Below, piece after piece: positions 8,983-64,000 of a stretch of DNA of 64,000 bases. Where the stretch lies: positions 372,001-436,000 of the forward strand of contig NZ_CP024962.1 of the NCBI RefSeq assembly GCF_002804205.1, written 5' to 3'. Position 1 is the stretch's first letter, and every line of letters starts with the position of its first letter. This DNA is from Entomoplasma freundtii (lineage in GTDB: Bacteria; Bacillota_I; Bacilli_A; Mycoplasmatales; Mycoplasmataceae). Under the pieces are notes generated by a model. That model worked only from the letters and a program-made list of their open reading frames with translations. It was not told the origin of the DNA and ran no database searches. The position numbers were made by a program, and so were the translations under genes.

Positions 8983-9073
8983 ATTAAGACCAAATTGGTT
9001 CTTACCTTACTCCTTTACTAAATAAAAGCGAAAAAAATTAAAACCCCCTAGGGTATTTTAAGGATGAAAAAAT

Positions 9074-11722
9074 ATGAAAAAATTGCTTGCCATCTTGGGA
9101 GCTACTACTATGGTAGTTTCTTCAAGTGTCACCGTAGTGGCCTGCACTAACGGCACAAAAACGGAAAATAAAAATGATGATGGAGGGTCAAAAGTGACCG
9201 TTCCTTACCTAAATAGTCGTAATAATTTAGAAGGGGCTGCTTCAATAATTGCTAAAGAACTGATTTTAACTGATCAATTCCAATTGTCACGTTCAGATTT
9301 TGAACGAAAAATTAACGGTCGTCTTGCTAATGAAGAAATTAAAAATTTAAATAGACCAATTTTAGAAAATGAACAAACCAAAAAATGAAGCGATTCTACA
9401 AGTGTTAATAGTTTATTAACAACTTATTTCTCAAGTTCCTCATTGAACATGGATGTTGTCGATAAAAATATTAGTTTAACCGGCAACCGAGGAGCCACCG
9501 ATGGCCAACTTTGGGCATTTTTGAAAAATAAATTTGGTCTTGATTTGGGTGAAAAAACCGAATTAATTGATATGGTTTTAAAGATGTTACCAGGAATTAA
9601 ATCGGCTGATATCAAAAACTTAGCTACAACTTATTTACCCAAATTAAATGATTTAGTGGCTAAGTTTGTTGATGGTAAAAAGACAGTTGCTGAAGGTATT
9701 TCTTTAGCAGCAAAACTTATTTTGGGTGATCAAGATTCGGCCATTATGAAGATGATTAATGAGCGTCTAAACTCAATTAATATGAACAGTTGGATTGATG
9801 CTGACACTAAAGGAGAGTCTTTACTACCAGCTGGTTTAATTAGTTTGGGTAATGGAATTTCGACAATTATTAAAAAACAACAAACATCCCCATATTACAG
9901 ACTAACGAAGGCTTCAATTAATGATGTAAAAGATTTAACTAAAAAATCAGGCAGTGCAGGTGGAAATTTAGGGAATGCTATTCGCGACTTAACTATTAAA
10001 GGCAAAGATAGTGCAGTGCTTGCCAATGATTTAGAAAAAAATATTAATATTTATGTTAACGGAATTAGTGATATTTTATTAGGGTTGCAATTCATTCAGG
10101 CTCACTTATTTTTGTTTAACGATGCCTGAAATTATCAAGATCATTTAAATACCCCTGATTTAAATCACCTTTTTAGTAAAGATGTTGATAATAAAAATTA
10201 TGTCAAGAATGTTTTAAATCAAAACGTTTTAGATAACCAAAAATTTAAACAATTAAGTACCAATGACACTTCAACTTTGAATTTAAAGTACTTGTTAACA
10301 ATTTTAACAAAAACTTTTGTTCCCTTAGACACTCAAAAAGATGCTCAAGGTCATCAATTGGCCAAGTTAATGTCTATCCTTTTCTTGTCACCGAATGATT
10401 TTCCAGTAAGTAAAGGAAAAGAAGTCGATGGCTTTTATGGAGGCCAATTCCTTGAATCGTTCTTAATGCCAATAATCGCAAATGCGATATCTAAAAAATT
10501 AGATTTAGATGCTACCAAGGCAGCAGGGGTCTCGATTGCTATTCAAAAAGCTCTGAAGGGAAGCATCATTTCATTTAATGAATTATTATTAACTGATAAA
10601 TCAGTTTACGATAGTGCTAAGTTGATTATTCAAAATACTTGCGATACTCTTGACGAATATAAAAGTTTGATTCTTCCTAATATTGGCGGACTTCCCGAAG
10701 ACAAACAAAAACTTATTAAAGCTTTATTGGATAATACTTCATCAATAAAAGTAGGGGTACCGTTATTGTTAAGGAACATTCCATTTATTGGTTCAGCTCA
10801 TAGTTTTAATTCCCTTTATTTAGAAGAACCATTGCAATTAGAAGACTTTATTAACAAGATATTTGGCTTATTGGAAGGTAAAGGAGATCTTATCCCAAAA
10901 GATAAAGTCGAACCTATAAAAGCTAAAGTTATTGATATTAATAAAAAAATTAATGGTCTACTTAAGGACCGCGAATTTAACATCAAGAACTTACTAATTA
11001 CTCAAATCAAGATGATTGGTGATCAAAGTGAAATGCCTTTATTATTTGGTGAACATTACCGTCAACGCTCTATTGTGAATATTTTTGCGGATATAGCTAA
11101 TCAAAATAATATTGATTGAGAAAATGGTACTTACGATGCTTCATATAACTTTGAAATGTCATCACTTAAAGGTTTATGAGATAAGATTGTAACCTTGGAT
11201 AAACCAACTCTTATTGAAGGTGGCAGAAGAACAACTAAAATTAACATGGTTTCAGCAATCTTAGAAAACCCAAGCAAAACTTCAGCTATTTTAGGGTTGG
11301 AAGAAAATGGAACCGTTCGCGAAACTAGTTTACTAAACTTCGTTTTTACGAATGTCCTAGGTATTAAAGATGATGGAAACCCAGACTCTACTGACAACTT
11401 AAACTTTTTATTTAATGTTACAAGTAACCTCTACAAAACTTTAAATCACCCAACAGTTGGAGCAACTTTTGATAATTTCTTTAGTAAAGTCTTTGATGAA
11501 AAAAGTTTTGATTTCCAATTTCAAGATTTGAAATTGGCAAGTGATGGTGTTGGTATTCTTTCAGAAACCGCCATTATTAGTTACCAAAATCCTTATGATA
11601 ATACTGAATGAATTTATACATTGAAATTTGCCCGTAGCCGTGTTGAAAAACCATTCCATGTTTCTGGTTTTTCCAAACAAGCAGTTGAAAAAGAAGTTCC
11701 AGAAAACCCAAGCAGAACTTAG
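9074..11722 (+). CDS. Large surface lipoprotein, unknown function
   Basis: 882-residue lipoprotein. The signal peptide MKKLLAILGATTMVVSSSVT leads to lipobox VVAC, with the modified Cys near residue 24, then a short Asn/Asp/Lys linker and a long soluble domain expected outside the membrane. No catalytic motif is seen. The N-terminal pattern and the alpha-helical, Ile/Leu/Asn-rich body resemble the paralogous lipoproteins that Entomoplasmataceae carry in many copies (such as the MOLPALP group), but that match is only an impression. RBS AAGGATG precedes ATG 9074. Four in-frame TGAs are Trp and the stop is TAG at 11720. Confidence 0.82.
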
Positions 11723-56438: not shown

Positions 56439-57236
56439 CTAGTCACTTGTCAAGACACTATCAGTGTAGATTTCTGGCGCTAGTTTTCGGAACATTGGTT
56501 TATTCTTTATTAACTTTAAAGGTTGATTAGTAATTCCTAAGACAAGTTCATAATAGTCAAGTAAAGCGCTCCCCAAAATTAAAAGGTGGGTTGTAGAAAA
56601 ATAACATTCCTCACTCGACCAAAAATCATGATTATGGAGTCTTTCAATAAAGGATAGTCAATCTCGATTCTGGCTTTTTTCAAAACTTTCTTGACATTTT
56701 TGACAAACTCATTTCAATTCATTTAGAGAAAAAAACGAATATTGCTGAAGAAGTTTGTAACAACGACCACAACGATTTAATAAATTAGGACCACCAAAAG
56801 TTGGCAAATGATAGAACAAAAAACGCACAAAAGTATTTAATGGTTTCGAGTCATCATTAAAATTATTGAAAGCTTTGTTTAAATCTCAAAACAACTGAGG
56901 GTTTGGTTCCCAACAACTTTGAGCATCTTGGATAATTTGACTTAGAGCTACCGCATATAAATAATTATTATAATTCTCAGTTATGGCCAAATGATCAGCA
57001 AGAAAATGGCCAGTTTTTAGACGAGATAATTTATTTTTAGTTCGCGTAGGAAAAAATATATATTCTCCTAAAGTAAACGTGACTAATGAATAACGGTTTT
57101 TAGAAGTTAATCTATTAACCCCAGGCGCTAGCAGTTTTACTAACCCTCAATTTTCTGTAAAAAGGGTCACAATTTTGCTAGTATCTTCATAATCTCAAGT
57201 TTGTAGTACTAAGCCCTTAGTACTTCTTGTCGACAT
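56439..57236 (-). CDS. recO: DNA repair protein RecO
   Basis: 265 residues: an N-terminal OB fold (STKGLVLQTWDYEDTSKIVTL), a helical body and a zinc-finger region (NRCGRCYKLL then WVCQKCQ, four Cys). It helps RecA load on single-stranded DNA during repair. It contains many TGA=Trp codons and no long standard-code frame. Its ATG at 57236 shares one base with the TAA of era (TAATG). The length is normal. Confidence 0.88.
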
Positions 57237-58138
57237 TAATATTTGTCCTTATCATAACCCATCTTCTTTAGGAGACTGGGCGAGTTCCGCCAATTCTCTT
57301 GAACTTTTACAAACACTTCTAAATGAATATTTTTATTAAAAAGGCGTTTCAACTCCTTACGTGTTTTGTATTTAATATCCTTAATTTTGTCACCTTGATG
57401 TCCTAAAATAATGCCTTTTTGTGATTGGCGTTCCACAATAATTGTGGCTAGAATATTAATATCAGTGGTCGTTTGTTGAAGCTCATCTACTAAAATTGCA
57501 ACACTATGTGGTACTTCTTGCCCAGCCTTAAAAAGGATGTTTTCCCGTAAAATTTCTTTGATTAGAAAACGGGTTGATTGATCAGAATGTTGCCCGTTAG
57601 GATAAAATTGATAGTCACTTTCTGGAACTAAATCTACCAAAGCTTGTATTAAATTTGCTTTGGAATTATCATCACCAACATTAAACGTAATCACTTGTTC
57701 TAATTCTGGTGCAATTGTTGCCCATTCAGCAATTTTAGTTTGTAATTCTTCTGGTGTAACCAAGTCAGTTTTTGAAATTAACAATACTTTTGGTACATCT
57801 TTTTTTAATAAATCTTTAAGAAGTAATAAATCATTCTTACCAATCTTTTCGTTCGCCGGAACGACAAAAAGAGCCACATCACTATCTTTAATGCTTCGGA
57901 AGGCTGTACTATTAAGCACTTTATCAAGTTCTTTTTGTGGTGTGTGCACTCCAGGAGTATCCATGAAGATTAATTGGTAGTCATCTTCTTTTGTCAAAAT
58001 ACCTCGAATATTATTTCGGGTAGTTTGCGCTTTATTGGTTACAATAGAAACTTTTGTTCCAATTAAATTATTAACTAAGGAAGATTTGCCAACATTTGGT
58101 CTTCCTACAACTGAAACAAAACCTGATTTAAAACTCAT
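57236..58138 (-). CDS. era: GTPase Era
   Basis: 300 residues. G1 VGRPNVGKSSLVN, G2 QTTRNNIRGI, G3 FMDTPGVH, G4 SKTDLV, and a C-terminal KH domain with VERQSQKGIILGHQGDKIKDI. It binds the 3' end of 16S rRNA in 30S maturation. The gene has no in-frame TGA. Its ATG shares one base with the TAA of ybeY, and its own stop shares a base with recO's ATG, making a coupled trio. Confidence 0.97.
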   Translation of the reverse strand: MSFKSGFVSVVGRPNVGKSSLVNNLIGTKVSIVTNKAQTTRNNIRGILTKEDDYQLIFMDTPGVHTPQKELDKVLNSTAFRSIKDSDVALFVVPANEKIGKNDLLLLKDLLKKDVPKVLLISKTDLVTPEELQTKIAEWATIAPELEQVITFNVGDDNSKANLIQALVDLVPESDYQFYPNGQHSDQSTRFLIKEILRENILFKAGQEVPHSVAILVDELQQTTTDINILATIIVERQSQKGIILGHQGDKIKDIKYKTRKELKRLFNKNIHLEVFVKVQENWRNSPSLLKKMGYDKDKY

Positions 58139-58650
58139 TAATTAGCCTCTTGTTCTAATTCTAAATAATCGTCGGGGGCAAAACGAATTTCATATCTTAA
58201 GCCAACACCTTCTAAAATTTCATCTTGCAAACCAAACATTTTTTTCTCATCATCTAAACTAGTTTCATGATCATATCCTAAAAGATGCAAAAAGCCATGA
58301 GTAATTAAAAAGGCCATTTCTTCTTCTAAAGTATGATTATATTTTCCAGCCTTGCGTTGAGCTTCATCGAAGCAAATAATGATATCACCGATTTCTCAAA
58401 AACCAGTTGCTTGCACTTCTTTCGGGTTCATTTCTAAAGGAAAGGACAAAACATCAGGAATATAATTTTTTTGTCGATATTGGTGATTCAAATTTTGGGC
58501 TTTTTCTTCAGTGACAAATTGAACAGTCAAGGATAAATTATCTTGGTGTAAATTTAAAAGCTCAACACCTTTGCCAATAATTTGATCAGCCAGTTTTTCT
58601 CATTGAGCCATATTGATATTAGTATCGTTAACAAAAGATATTTCTAACAT
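58138..58650 (-). CDS. ybeY: Endoribonuclease YbeY
   Basis: 170-residue metal-dependent endoribonuclease for 16S rRNA 3' maturation and ribosome quality control. The signature [13 protein letters not shown] holds the three His that bind zinc; [10 protein letters not shown] and GDIIIC precede it as usual. ATG 58650 follows GAGGTGG. It sits 23 bases after the C39-peptidase gene stop, and its TAA overlaps the era ATG by one base. Confidence 0.95.
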
Positions 58651-58673: not shown

Positions 58674-60710
58674 TTATACCATACCCTCCCTTAAAGGCAT
58701 TATGCCCCCCAAAGGACCAAAAGCCAGATTTGAAGTACCGAAAATTGTTAAGCCCTTCTCGGCATTTAATTTTAAAAACAAATTTAGTAATTGCTTTTGG
58801 TCATTTATCGGTAACGCACTTAGACAGTCATTAAATAAATAAACGTTTGCCTCAAGGCAGCAAAAGTGTAAAAAATTAATTAGTTGTCGTTGCTGCAAAG
58901 TTAAAGCGGAGTCACAATTGGTAAGAAAAGTTAATTTGTAAGTTCTCAATCAATAGTCCAGATTTAATTGTTGGATAAAACTAGTGGTAAGGTTTTGGTT
59001 TTTCCAAAAAAGATTATGGCAAACTAAGCCCGGCAAAATTATCCCTTTGTCATCCAAATAGATAATTTTCAAGTGGTAATCAACTAACGGTTTTTCATTT
59101 CATGTAAAAGGTTTTTCTTGTTTGTCCCAAGTAGCAAAAAAATGAGTTAATTGTTGTTTAGAAAGAATGATTTGAAGATTATTGGGCGACGAAAATGATG
59201 GAGGTCAATTTCAATTGATTAATGAATCCCAATTTTTTCAACCAAAACTTTTTAATTTCTGGGGTTTTAATAAAGATGTCTGGTTATCTCGGCGATAAGA
59301 CTTAGAATGAAAAAAATTAAGGTTTTGAAACTCACGTAAAGTGGTCTTTTGCTCATAGAAATTAAGAACTTTATCCGTTAATTCGTTTGTTAAATGGAAT
59401 CAAAGATAAAGTAAATTAAAGCAATAAAGTAAATCTAAACTTAAAATTTGGTTATGGTTAAAAAGTCAAAATATCACCAAAAAGAGACCGTAAGTTAAAA
59501 ATTTTTGGCAGAAACTAGTCCAAGTATTTTTGGTAAGCATAGTCAATTGATAATTTTTTTGTTTCGTTAAATAATCTTGAAAAGTATTCCCTAAATTTGC
59601 CAATTCACCTTCAATTAACCCCCGTTTGCTAAATAAAATACGGTTTTCCAAATAAATCTGGAGTTCTTTTTGATAAAGATTGGCAGTAGTTTTTAAAATA
59701 GAGCTTTGGCTTTTTCTTTTATAACTTTGCCACCAATTGAAAAGATTATTCAAAAGACATAAAAATAATGGTGGTAAAATCAACATTCAATGATTTTGGA
59801 TAATTAAATAAGTTAAAAAGGGCCCATAGAGGCAAAAATTAATCAAGGCCAAAATACCAAGTCAAAAACTTTGCAAATTATTTCAACAAGTGTTGGCTGT
59901 CCGTAATCATACTTGCCAATCTTCGCTATTTTTAAAAGGTGCGAGTAATTCATTTTGCTCCCAAATCTCCCAAAACTTGGTTCATGTTTGAAAAGATATT
60001 TTCTGCCATAGTCAACCATCTAAAGCTTTTGCTAGCAAACCGCATAGTAAAAGACTAATAAAAGCTAATAATTCTCAAAAATTAATTGTTTGTAAAATTA
60101 ATCATTGATTAAAAATCTTAATAAAAAAAGCGCTCAAAAACCAAGCTAAATTTTGGAGAAGACCAGTACCTAAAAGAAGCCCTAAAAACAACGAATTTTT
60201 TTTGGTTCATCGTTTTAATGTGCCTCACTGTCAATCTGTTTTTCAAAAACCTTGTCTTTGAAAAACAAAAATTTGTCCTAGGTAACGTTCCTTCAGATTA
60301 AGATGAGTAATTTTTTGGTCACGTTTTGTTGTTGAAGGATCGGTGATCCAAACAAAATTATTTGAAATGCGTGTCAAAATAACATAATGCTTAAGCCCTA
60401 AATCGTTTAAGATATTTAAAATAATCGGGGTGCTTTGTTTATTGACTAAAAGACTCTCAAAGTCGCAATGGTAGCCATCGCCTTGAAGTTTATAACAACT
60501 GCCTAATTTTTGCAAATCAAAAAACGAAAGCCCTTCGTTTGGTAATTTCGGATAATTATTTTTTAATTCTGAAAGCGTAATTTGTTGATTATGAAAATAA
60601 TCAATTAACATGGCTAAACAAGCAAAACCGCAATCATTTCACGATTCTTGCGGCACAAAATGATAATTATTAAATGATTGATGGGTTATGGATTGATAAC
60701 GATTTCTCAT
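58674..60710 (-). CDS. C39-peptidase ABC transporter-like protein with degenerate ATPase
   Basis: 678 residues laid out as a peptidase-containing ABC transporter (PCAT). Residues 1-145 are a C39 protease with the full set: Gln21, Cys27 in NDCGFACLAM, His108 in KHYVILT and Asp124 in ITDP, at spacings close to ComA (Q-C 6, C-H 81, H-D 16). Residues 165-420 hold about six membrane helices. The last 190 residues are where the nucleotide-binding domain should be, but there is no Walker A, the signature reads ALTLQQRQ instead of LSGGQ, Walker B reads VYLFND, and the H-loop His is Asn. The frame is open and intact. Such proteins normally cleave double-Gly leaders and export the peptide; here only cleavage looks possible unless a partner supplies ATP. 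Confidence 0.82.
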
Positions 60711-60745: not shown

Positions 60746-61294
60746 TTAATAATCGTAAACAATTTCTGTCTTAATTTTTTGGGCAGTTTCGTCATTTTCA
60801 AGATATTGAATTAACGCTAAACCAAAATCAAAGACTGCGCCGACACCAACACTAGTAATAATGTGGCCATCCACCACGACTTGCTTAGGTGATTTGTCAT
60901 TTGCTTCTTTTAAAAATTCGTTGGCTCCTGGATAATGCGTGACACTAACACCGTTTAAAATTCCTGCTTTACCAAGAATTTGCGGTGCAGCACAAATCGC
61001 AGCCACCAGTTTATTTTCTTCATGAAATTCTTTGACTAATTTCAGCACTATTTCGTTATTGATTAAATCCTTTGTTCCAGGACCGCCAGGAATAATTAAC
61101 CCGTCGTAATCAACAATTTTGAGCTTACTTAATTCCTTTTGAGCGCGGAATTTAATGTCGTGAGACCCAACAATATCCAAACTATCTGTCGAAAATAAAT
61201 CGACTTCAATTTTTGCCCGACGTAATAAGTCGATTGTGGCAATGGCTTCGGTTTCTTCAACTCCGTTATTTAAAATAATTGCGGTTTTTTTCAT
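60746..61294 (-). CDS. DJ-1/PfpI family protein
   Basis: 182-residue flavodoxin-like alpha/beta protein. The nucleophile elbow AAICAAPQIL holds the conserved Cys near 104; GVEETEA gives the Glu that tunes it; IIPGGPG and HYPGANEFL complete the site. Members act as deglycases, chaperones or oxidative-stress proteins; the exact role here is unknown. ATG 61294 is chosen over an upstream in-frame ATG because AGAGG lies seven bases before it. It is 35 bases upstream of the C39-peptidase gene, and probably in the same transcript. Confidence 0.9.
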   Translation of the reverse strand: MKKTAIILNNGVEETEAIATIDLLRRAKIEVDLFSTDSLDIVGSHDIKFRAQKELSKLKIVDYDGLIIPGGPGTKDLINNEIVLKLVKEFHEENKLVAAICAAPQILGKAGILNGVSVTHYPGANEFLKEANDKSPKQVVVDGHIITSVGVGAVFDFGLALIQYLENDETAQKIKTEIVYDY

Positions 61295-61323
61295 AATTGA
61301 CCTCTTCTCTTTCAATCTTACAC

Positions 61324-61362
61324 AAAAAATACTCCACTTGGAAAGAAGCGGAGTATTTTTTT
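61324..61362 (-). terminator. Terminator of the FtsX-type permease gene
   Basis: AAAAAATACTCC and GGAGTATTTTTT form a 12-bp stem with a 14-base loop. The TAA stop at 61361 touches it. Confidence 0.85.
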
Positions 61363-64000
61363 ATTCATGACTTTCATTCATTAAAATAGAGACCGGAGCA
61401 GTTCGTGCTTTATGCGAAGAAACTCAAAGTGATCCAAAGAATGAAGCGGCAATAATTACTAATGATAGTAATGGTGGCCATCAACTAAAGCCATAAGGAA
61501 TGGCAAAGCCACGGTTAGCAATACTTGTAATTACTCCATAACTAATTACTCAAGCAATAATTGTCGCTAGTAATCAGGCAAGGAATGAGAAGATGGCTAC
61601 AGCACCAAAAGCATAGGACTGAATTTGCCAATTGGCATAACCGAGAGCCCGCATCAATATCATAAATTGTTGGTATTGAGCAATGTAAATATCTCCCACT
61701 AACATGATCAATAAGGAGGCTGTAATAAGGATGGCAATAATTAGCAACATCCCAATTGAAATTGTTAATGAGTAAATTTGGTTAATTAAAGCCTTTTGAC
61801 TTGAAAGAAGAACTTGGTTTTCGATTAAGGTCGTCATTCCTAAACCACCTGTATAAAGTAGTCCTAATGAATACTGTCCAAGGTTATCAATAACGTTAAA
61901 CGAAACTGAGGAAGTTAATCCTTCTGGTTCCTCGACATTTGAGAGCTTACCAGTATGTCATTTTAGAGGCGCATAGTTGTAGGCGTCTTGTTGATTAGAA
62001 AGATAAGTTAATTTGCTTAAATCATTTTTATTGACATAAACATCATCTTCGACATTACGAAGTTTAAACGTTAATAATTTGTCATCCCAAGGCCGGTAAC
62101 CTTGGTTATCCCTAGTATTGACTCGTCCAGGTCCCTCAAATAAAGAAACTTGGGTTCCATAACTTCGGGCATTAGAGTAGCCCATCATCATATTCGCAAC
62201 ATCAGAATCAATTAATAAAAGTTTACTTTCATAGGAAACTAAAGTTCCTACTGATTCGAAGTTAATTTGGAAATTTTGGGCTTGGTTTGGAGAACCATAG
62301 TGAACTGGTGCATTCTGCATATAACTTAAGGCACCAGGACCAGTTTCACTATCAAAAGCATAACGTAACCAATAAGGATATTTTTTCCCGTTTGTTAAGC
62401 GGTCTAGCCCTCCCGGTTCATTTTCACTATTATCGCCATAACTTAAGTCGTAAGGACGGATCATAAAGTAAGTCGTTTGGCTATCATTTTCTCTTCCTCA
62501 AGCCTTTTTAACAGAGAAGGGAACTTCATCACCAGAAACATTTGTTTCGTAATATGAATTTTCACCAGGTCCCTTATTACTTGAATTAGTTGAGGAATGG
62601 AAAAGATCTTCTTCATTAGCTAAATCACTTGGAATGAAAAGTTTAATATTTTTATATTGGAAGTAAGGTCGTAAATAAGATGAAACTAATTGACCATTGT
62701 CGTTTCTAATGGCCAAATCACTAAATAGATAGGCGTTATTAACAAGATTTTGGTCTTGTGTATAAGGATTTTGGTAAGTGAACTTATTATTATCCATTCG
62801 GTACATATCCATTCAACGGTCCGGGTTAGTGCCATCTTTTCAATTATCATCAAAACGGTTTTGACTATTTTTTCAAGAGTTTTGGTAATCTTGCGTATTA
62901 ACTTTCCTTTGGGTTTTTAAAGTATCTTGAGGATTCGCTAATAATTGCGATTTAGCAAAATCTTGGTCATCATAAACTCAAGCATATTTAGGCAAAATGT
63001 CCCAAGGCACATCACCACGATTTGTTCGATAAGTTAATTGACGAGTTCTCGTTAAAGCATTCGTTAATGTTTTATTATGTTTTAACTTATAAGCCGCTTC
63101 TGCTTGACGGTTAGCAACCATTGGAATAGTTAATGTTTTAGTTGAAGCGTTTCAAACTTTTGTCTTGCCTCAATAAATATCATTTTGTGGCAATGGTTTG
63201 CCAGCAAAGATATCCGCAATTTTGTTTTTTGTTTGGAGGTCAAGATACATATTTTGCTTTTCAATATTAGTTAATGAATAAGCATCTTGTGATTGATCAA
63301 TTCCAGTAACATTAATTCCTTGATAATTATTAACATCAACTGGGAGATTTGTAATTAAGGTTTCGCGTTTAGGAATATAAGTTTCGGCATTAAATGAAAT
63401 TCCAAATTGTTCTAAACGTGAAGGGGATTTGTAAATAAAGCTTTTAATATATGGTGGAACCTGAGTCAGAATCGCATTAATGATACTTTCTTTTCAGTTG
63501 TCACCACCTTTGCCACCTGTTCCAGAAATTGAATTAATTACACTGTTAATAATGCTTGGTAAAGCGGCTGTTAAAGCCCTTGAAAAATTTTGAGCTAGTG
63601 CTTGCTTATTGGCATCTAATGTTAAATTATCGTCATAAGCCGACCCCATTAAAGCTTTAATTAAATCCGGTTGTCCGTTTAAAATAATGCCGTAGAATTG
63701 GTCAATAGTTCCGATATTGAAAGATTGGCCTAGAACGGTGAAAAAGTTATTTCCGAACGCTTCTCCGGCTAAACCTAAGAAAACTTCTGGAGTTTCAATA
63801 ACATAAGGGTAGGTATAAGTTAAGTTAGAAAATTCGTATTTATTATCGCTAGATGCTTGGCCATCATTTAATTCAGGGGCAAAAATATAGCGTGGAATTG
63901 GTGAAGATTGGCTAACTAAATCCATGTAACCGCTCGGTTCTTTGTAATAGCCATATTTTGTTCCAGAACTATCAAGTTCTAGCTGACTTGATACCCAATC
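61361..64000 (-). CDS. Large FtsX-type ABC transporter permease, N-terminus outside window
   Basis: The C-terminal 879 residues of a very long protein, open to the right edge. The last 210 residues are an FtsX/MacB-like domain with three or four helices (LLIIAILITASLLIMLVGDIYI, then RALGYANWQIQSYAFGAVAIF with the family R-x-LG motif, and ending with a short charged tail). The rest is an extracellular region rich in Asn, Asp, Tyr and Gly without recognisable domain. In Mollicutes, such giant permeases pair with an ABC ATPase in macrolide or lipoprotein export-like systems; the ATPase is not in the window. Several TGA=Trp codons. Confidence 0.8.

Follow-up and report, generated by a model that had tools for sequence, protein, structure and literature searches.

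PCATs are the textbook case of cleavage coupled to export. In PCAT1 the protease is inhibited when ATP binds, and the substrate is cut in the inward-facing conformation (PMC6959990). A protein of this C39-ABC type is encoded by gene 0401 of JCVI-syn3A, for which a double-glycine peptide was not found; the same absence is cited for other mycoplasmas, and a role in lipoyl-peptide import and transamidation was tentatively proposed for the gene (Breuer et al. 2019, PMC6609329). Neither an ATPase-dead PCAT nor the peptide family described below was the subject of any paper that we found in the open-licence full-text literature.

The window protein and its setting

The PCAT gene of the window (the whole stretch of 64,000 nucleotides from Entomoplasma freundtii that was analysed) is the single C39 gene of its genome, which comprises 838 kb in one contig (Table 1). 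Its frame is open for 678 codons only under genetic code 4, with 20 TGA codons read as Trp, and is broken up under code 11. The DJ-1/PfpI gene, 35 nt away, is a conserved same-strand neighbour of PCAT in the ATPase-dead clade defined below and in genus g12. From DJ-1 through PCAT, ybeY and era to recO all gaps are at most 35 nt; a search for terminator-like sites between these genes found none, and such a site is located past recO at 56404-56380. The earlier note had placed the gene on a shared transcript with these neighbours: the tight spacing without an internal terminator-like site agrees with this, and a common transcript for the five genes is plausible. Further upstream, at 61361-64000 of the window and beyond, lie a giant FtsX-type permease (~1,800 aa) and a lipoprotein; in the 20-kb neighbourhoods read, these are found upstream of DJ-1-PCAT in most ATPase-dead genomes and in none of the intact ones.

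Table 1. Features of the PCAT locus and the unlinked peptide gene (window positions unless a contig is given)
Feature	Position	Strand	Extent or basis
ATPase-dead PCAT ortholog	58674..60710	-	678 aa, code 4
C39 peptidase domain	60255..60668	-	residues 15-152; Pfam and pLDDT about 85
Gln21 codon	60648-60650	-	
Cys27 codon	60630-60632	-	
His108 codon	60387-60389	-	
Asp124 codon	60339-60341	-	
Transmembrane domain, six helices	59337..60194	-	residues 173-458
ABC nucleotide-binding-domain (NBD) remnant	58677..59288	-	residues 475-678; alignment and fold comparison
DJ-1/PfpI protein, upstream	60746..61315	-	Pfam 2e-41
ybeY, 23 nt downstream of PCAT	58138..58650	-	
era, after ybeY in the putative operon	57236..58138	-	conserved cluster c4
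recO, after era in the putative operon	56439..57236	-	
Own-genome double-Gly-leader peptide	G000:C1:641019-641333; L345 about 9020-9334	-	profile match

The N-terminal part is matched by Pfam Peptidase_C39 over residues 16-152 (E=1.8e-22), and the catalytic Gln, Cys, His and Asp, which the earlier note had recognised from their spacing, are exact at all four positions. The six helices predicted there are likewise recovered, both as hydrophobic segments and as long helices of the predicted model. A Pfam scan of the protein detected neither ABC_tran nor ABC_membrane, and the membrane part is too diverged for the latter. Compared with intact PCATs, the C-terminal part is without Walker A, the Q-loop, the signature, the Walker B Glu and the H-loop His. 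In the alignment LTLQQ stands at LSGGQ and YLFND at L(I)LDE, and Walker A is without counterpart, as had been noticed at the outset; the residue in the H-loop His column, initially given as Asn, varies between Asn and Ser with the alignment used.

The view of this C-terminal part as an ABC-domain remnant is supported by the profile search and the structure prediction. Profile and alignment are continuous with intact orthologs across it, and residues 475-678 of the model align with solved NBDs (e.g., 4q7k: Z 14.5, rmsd 2.8 over 146 residues), a fold match that is not independent evidence since the input alignment of the structure predictor consisted of PCATs. The model is confident for C39 only (pLDDT about 85), with low confidence in the membrane and NBD parts: pLDDT is 25-35 over about 460-540, where Walker A should lie, and 60-78 over 550-657.

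Orthology, loss of the ATPase and selection

In those of the 60 family genomes that have this gene, it is situated upstream of ybeY, a place that the window PCAT shares with Spiroplasma-type PCATs. By this synteny (DJ-1, PCAT, ybeY, era, recO) the window gene is an ortholog of the Mollicutes-wide PCAT, and vertical inheritance is the favoured explanation; in the order at large, 262 of 298 genomes have a C39 match. The window protein is fast-evolving, with 16-23% identity to related copies. A related-locus search with this protein as the single query gave no matches, and one with an alignment returned mostly unrelated C39 proteins, plus Mesoplasma grammopterae (genus g4 being Mesoplasma). In two genomes (G018 and G011; L036 and L037) no ATG, GTG or TTG precedes the catalytic Cys of PCAT, and translation seems to start at an ATT preceded by a good ribosome-binding site. 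Spiroplasma sp. AdecLV25b (L083) has the C39 part and the rest of PCAT in separate frames, possibly a recent pseudogene.

Reading the motif columns of the 45 open copies from the 60 family genomes, we found Walker A intact in 27 (genera g7, g11 and g12, and G019) and lost in 18, namely in every open copy of genera g1, g2, g3, g4 and g9, plus G012. The remaining nucleotide-binding motifs have decayed alongside. In other families, Walker A is present in all 18 copies whose reading extends over this region (15 from f7, three from f3), a count that omits two loci with only short or unreadable frames. On a ValS tree the copies without Walker A fall into one supported clade (100/99) and G012, so that two losses suffice, and alignment and tree together show the NBD to have lost every motif by which it would handle ATP in the ancestor of the clade. 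Open copies that read through C39 retain its Gln, Cys, His and Asp, except that one intact copy (G028) has Asn in the alignment column of the Asp. The G024 protein is reduced to 388 residues, with the C39 and membrane parts present and the NBD gone. The same comparison shows retention of the C39 catalytic residues and the predicted membrane domain after the ATPase was lost. PCAT pseudogenes occur in G031 (Mesoplasma), G010, G061, G063 and G064.

The homologue survey, with 18 open copies from five genera plus G012, thus bears out the clade-wide loss of Walker A that the earlier note had raised as a question. What that note had named as counting against its reading was not encountered: the decay is not that of a sole copy, a lone sequencing error or pseudogene is ruled out by relatives that share the loss in open frames, and the C39 part is under purifying selection. 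Genus g7 (G009 and G035; L048 and L049) has a second ABC half-transporter of ~650 aa ~3-5 kb upstream of its intact PCAT. A PF00664 search for an orphan half-transporter partner found none specific to the ATPase-dead clade.

Omega was estimated by domain with the NG86 method, for which dS is near saturation in distant pairs; in the closer ATPase-dead pairs C39 has values of 0.05-0.14 and the NBD remnant values of 0.15-0.40, whereas in intact pairs the NBD is usually more constrained than C39. For dead pairs the median NBD/C39 ratio of omega is 2.2, for intact pairs 0.66 (Mann-Whitney p=0.006 with each genome used in one pair at most). Judged by these estimates, C39 became the most constrained domain once the ATPase died, in agreement with the proposal that selection kept the frame and the catalytic residues while the ATPase decayed. 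With an omega still below 1, the NBD remnant has apparently been retained for a structural role.

Intact genomes have a small accessory gene between PCAT and ybeY, coding for a single membrane helix and ~100 residues; an ORF for it was identified in nine intact genomes, G019 among them, as well as in G012, G015 and G005, and its presence in the other intact genomes is deduced from a PCAT-ybeY gap of about 315-420 nt. It is missing (gap <50 nt) in g1, g2, g4 and g9, and absent from the window. As G005, G015 and G012 are ATPase-dead yet retain it, the ATPase was lost before the accessory gene, and its presence in these three hints that something export-like persisted after the ATPase was gone. 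We suspected a minimal HlyD-type adaptor; the accessory protein has no relative in Pfam, NCBIfam or PDB that would support this.

A family of double-glycine-leader peptides

The earlier note saw no double-Gly leader peptide nearby. This stands for the surroundings of the PCAT gene, and the strict leader pattern has no match in the entire genome, but a genome-wide search found a homologous peptide ~209 kb from PCAT, outside the window, between rsmI and tRNA/rplU. Its sequence runs MQNKFEINDKTIPKGLTKMAPNELKEVDGG up to the putative cleavage site and continues SLSGVLLGGLASLIDASTNFITSMAG... after it. The family was traced from a sub-threshold match in G012 together with the leader pattern; this match came from a Bacteriocin_IIc (PF10439) search that gave nothing above the cut-off. 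Of the PF10439 matches, those in G002 and G003 resemble YneF-type proteins, and the pattern GARYTNNNNNNNATHNNNGGNGG picks up mostly other genes and presumed PTS proteins (ELQIIIGG). Among the matches to GARYTNNNNNNNATHNNNGGNGG, the peptides from Mesoplasma and G012 are short ORFs, homologous to one another, that carry the motif close to the N-terminus. A first profile of three Mesoplasma rows and G012, built without the own-genome peptide, detected the latter at E=3e-13; a wider profile, of which it is itself one row, matches it at E=1.6e-20.

With the wider profile the family is found in 51 of the 60 family genomes (E<=0.01), as a rule in single copy, and in most of them the gene adjoins rsmI, greA or rplU; its site is an ordinary chromosomal place, not a bacteriocin cluster. 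No remnant was found at the rsmI locus of genomes without the peptide. The leaders agree with the PCAT1 consensus (L-12, E-8, L-7, G-2, G-1). The predicted mature peptide starts with a hydrophobic Gly-rich stretch and is almost invariant over roughly its first 45 residues among the Mesoplasma species that have PCAT. Weaker Gly-Gly homologues exist in other families of the order with intact PCATs. The peptide has no relative in Pfam, NCBIfam or PDB. The G263 peptide (L365) has a weak, non-significant match (E=0.1) to the NCBIfam entry (MPN313 family) for a similarly sized, uncharacterised Mycoplasma protein.

A Gly-Gly or Ala-Gly site is kept in 44 of the 45 genomes with an open PCAT versus 4 of the 14 in which it is broken or absent (Fisher p=1.6e-7, in a test that treats related genomes as independent and with classes set by hand from ORF reading, the incomplete G008 being left out). 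Among genomes with an ATPase-dead open PCAT the site is kept in 17 of 18. Individual cases show the joint decay: Gly-Gly has become Glu-Val in G031, the Mesoplasma with a PCAT pseudogene, and Gly-Val in G023, which has no PCAT, while Gly-Gly persists in the closely related G017; in G036 a stop interrupts PCAT and a frameshift the peptide. Counter-examples are G022, which keeps a dead PCAT with the peptide gone, and G010, G017, G064 and G080, where PCAT is broken and the peptide kept. On these genomic patterns the putative leader peptide tracks the protease, not the ATPase, and is most likely the substrate of the C39 protease.

Proposed function and comparison with known systems

We favour, with a probability of about 0.68, the reading that the window protein is a PCAT ortholog turned membrane-embedded double-glycine leader peptidase, which would still mature its peptide without export by ATP hydrolysis. 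The ATP-handling motifs of the NBD were lost in the clade ancestor, with the catalytic residues of C39 and the membrane domain staying, and C39 would most likely still cut the leader of one conserved core-genome peptide. Because ATP binding inhibits the protease of PCAT1 (PMC6959990), an ATP-blind PCAT may sit in a permanent protease-on state. Export through NBD closure would be lost, and, judging by the state of the NBD, ATP-driven export of the cleaved peptide is expected to be absent; more speculatively, the released peptide may enter or stay with the membrane.

The earlier note had left two alternatives standing, a separate ATPase subunit and a tethered processing protease. We favour the latter because G002 and G003, of the same genus, have besides PCAT only one adjacent ABC half-transporter pair, because G024 has no NBD for pairing, and because the accessory gene was later lost. 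We consider it unlikely that the dead half-transporter teams up with another ABC ATPase or half-transporter and so continues ATP-driven peptide export: such pairing would account for the retained six membrane segments and GG peptide and for the accessory gene kept in G005, G015 and G012, and other ABC ATPases are present in every genome, but the Q-loop, signature, Walker B and H-loop have gone as well as Walker A. A somewhat smaller chance falls to PCAT being a relic on its way out and devoid of present function. The pseudogenes listed above, the missing peptide of G022 and the low identity to related copies point that way; against it, 18 genomes of six genera have an open frame with invariant catalytic residues, C39 has a low omega in the closer pairs, and the start of the mature peptide is near-identical across PCAT-bearing Mesoplasma species. 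Recruitment of C39 to another reaction, such as that tentatively proposed for gene 0401, is very improbable. The authors of that proposal advanced it since a double-Gly peptide had not been found (PMC6609329); against it, in the present family a conserved peptide of this kind tracks PCAT. The favoured leader peptidase could be taken further, as an ATP-independent PCAT membrane protease of a Mollicutes clade whose conserved peptide is the long-missing mycoplasma double-glycine substrate; we give this wider reading even odds.

Set beside described PCATs, the window protein has the C39 domain with its Gln, Cys, His and Asp and the six-helix exporter membrane domain, and lacks a functional NBD (Walker A, Q-loop, LSGGQ, Walker B Glu, H-loop His); a candidate double-glycine leader substrate is encoded in the genome, unlinked and with predicted cleavage. 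The best curated match is NCBIfam NF045998 (Mbov_0121 family peptidase domain-containing ABC transporter; E=1.7e-36 over 21-490), with 125.8 bits against a cut-off of 500 and no match past residue 490, where the NBD motifs are gone; an intact ortholog matches over its whole length (1.5e-100, 337 bits), also below the cut-off. The top whole-length fold match of the predicted model, itself derived from a PCAT alignment, is PCAT1 of Clostridium thermocellum (PDB 6v9z, substrate CtA; E=1e-19), whose Q15, C21, H99 and D115 correspond in the same arrangement to Gln21, Cys27, His108 and Asp124. Whereas PCAT1 binds and hydrolyses ATP, the window protein is without all ATP motifs; this natural clade would separate cleavage from export, and its sister genera, whose orthologs are intact, supply the control.

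Gene 0401 of JCVI-syn3A and Mycoplasma mycoides, a C39-ABC gene of the same bacterial class compared here by description (PMC6609329), is probably the syntenic ortholog of the window PCAT, as judged from its neighbourhood. The predicted double-Gly-leader peptide of these genomes is new, having been missed by earlier mycoplasma genome studies. The peptide family offers a concrete candidate substrate for a Mollicute-wide C39 protein whose substrate was reported missing, including in the JCVI-syn3A minimal cell (PMC6609329), and gives a gene without an assigned role a putative partner, as an enzyme-substrate pair open to direct test.
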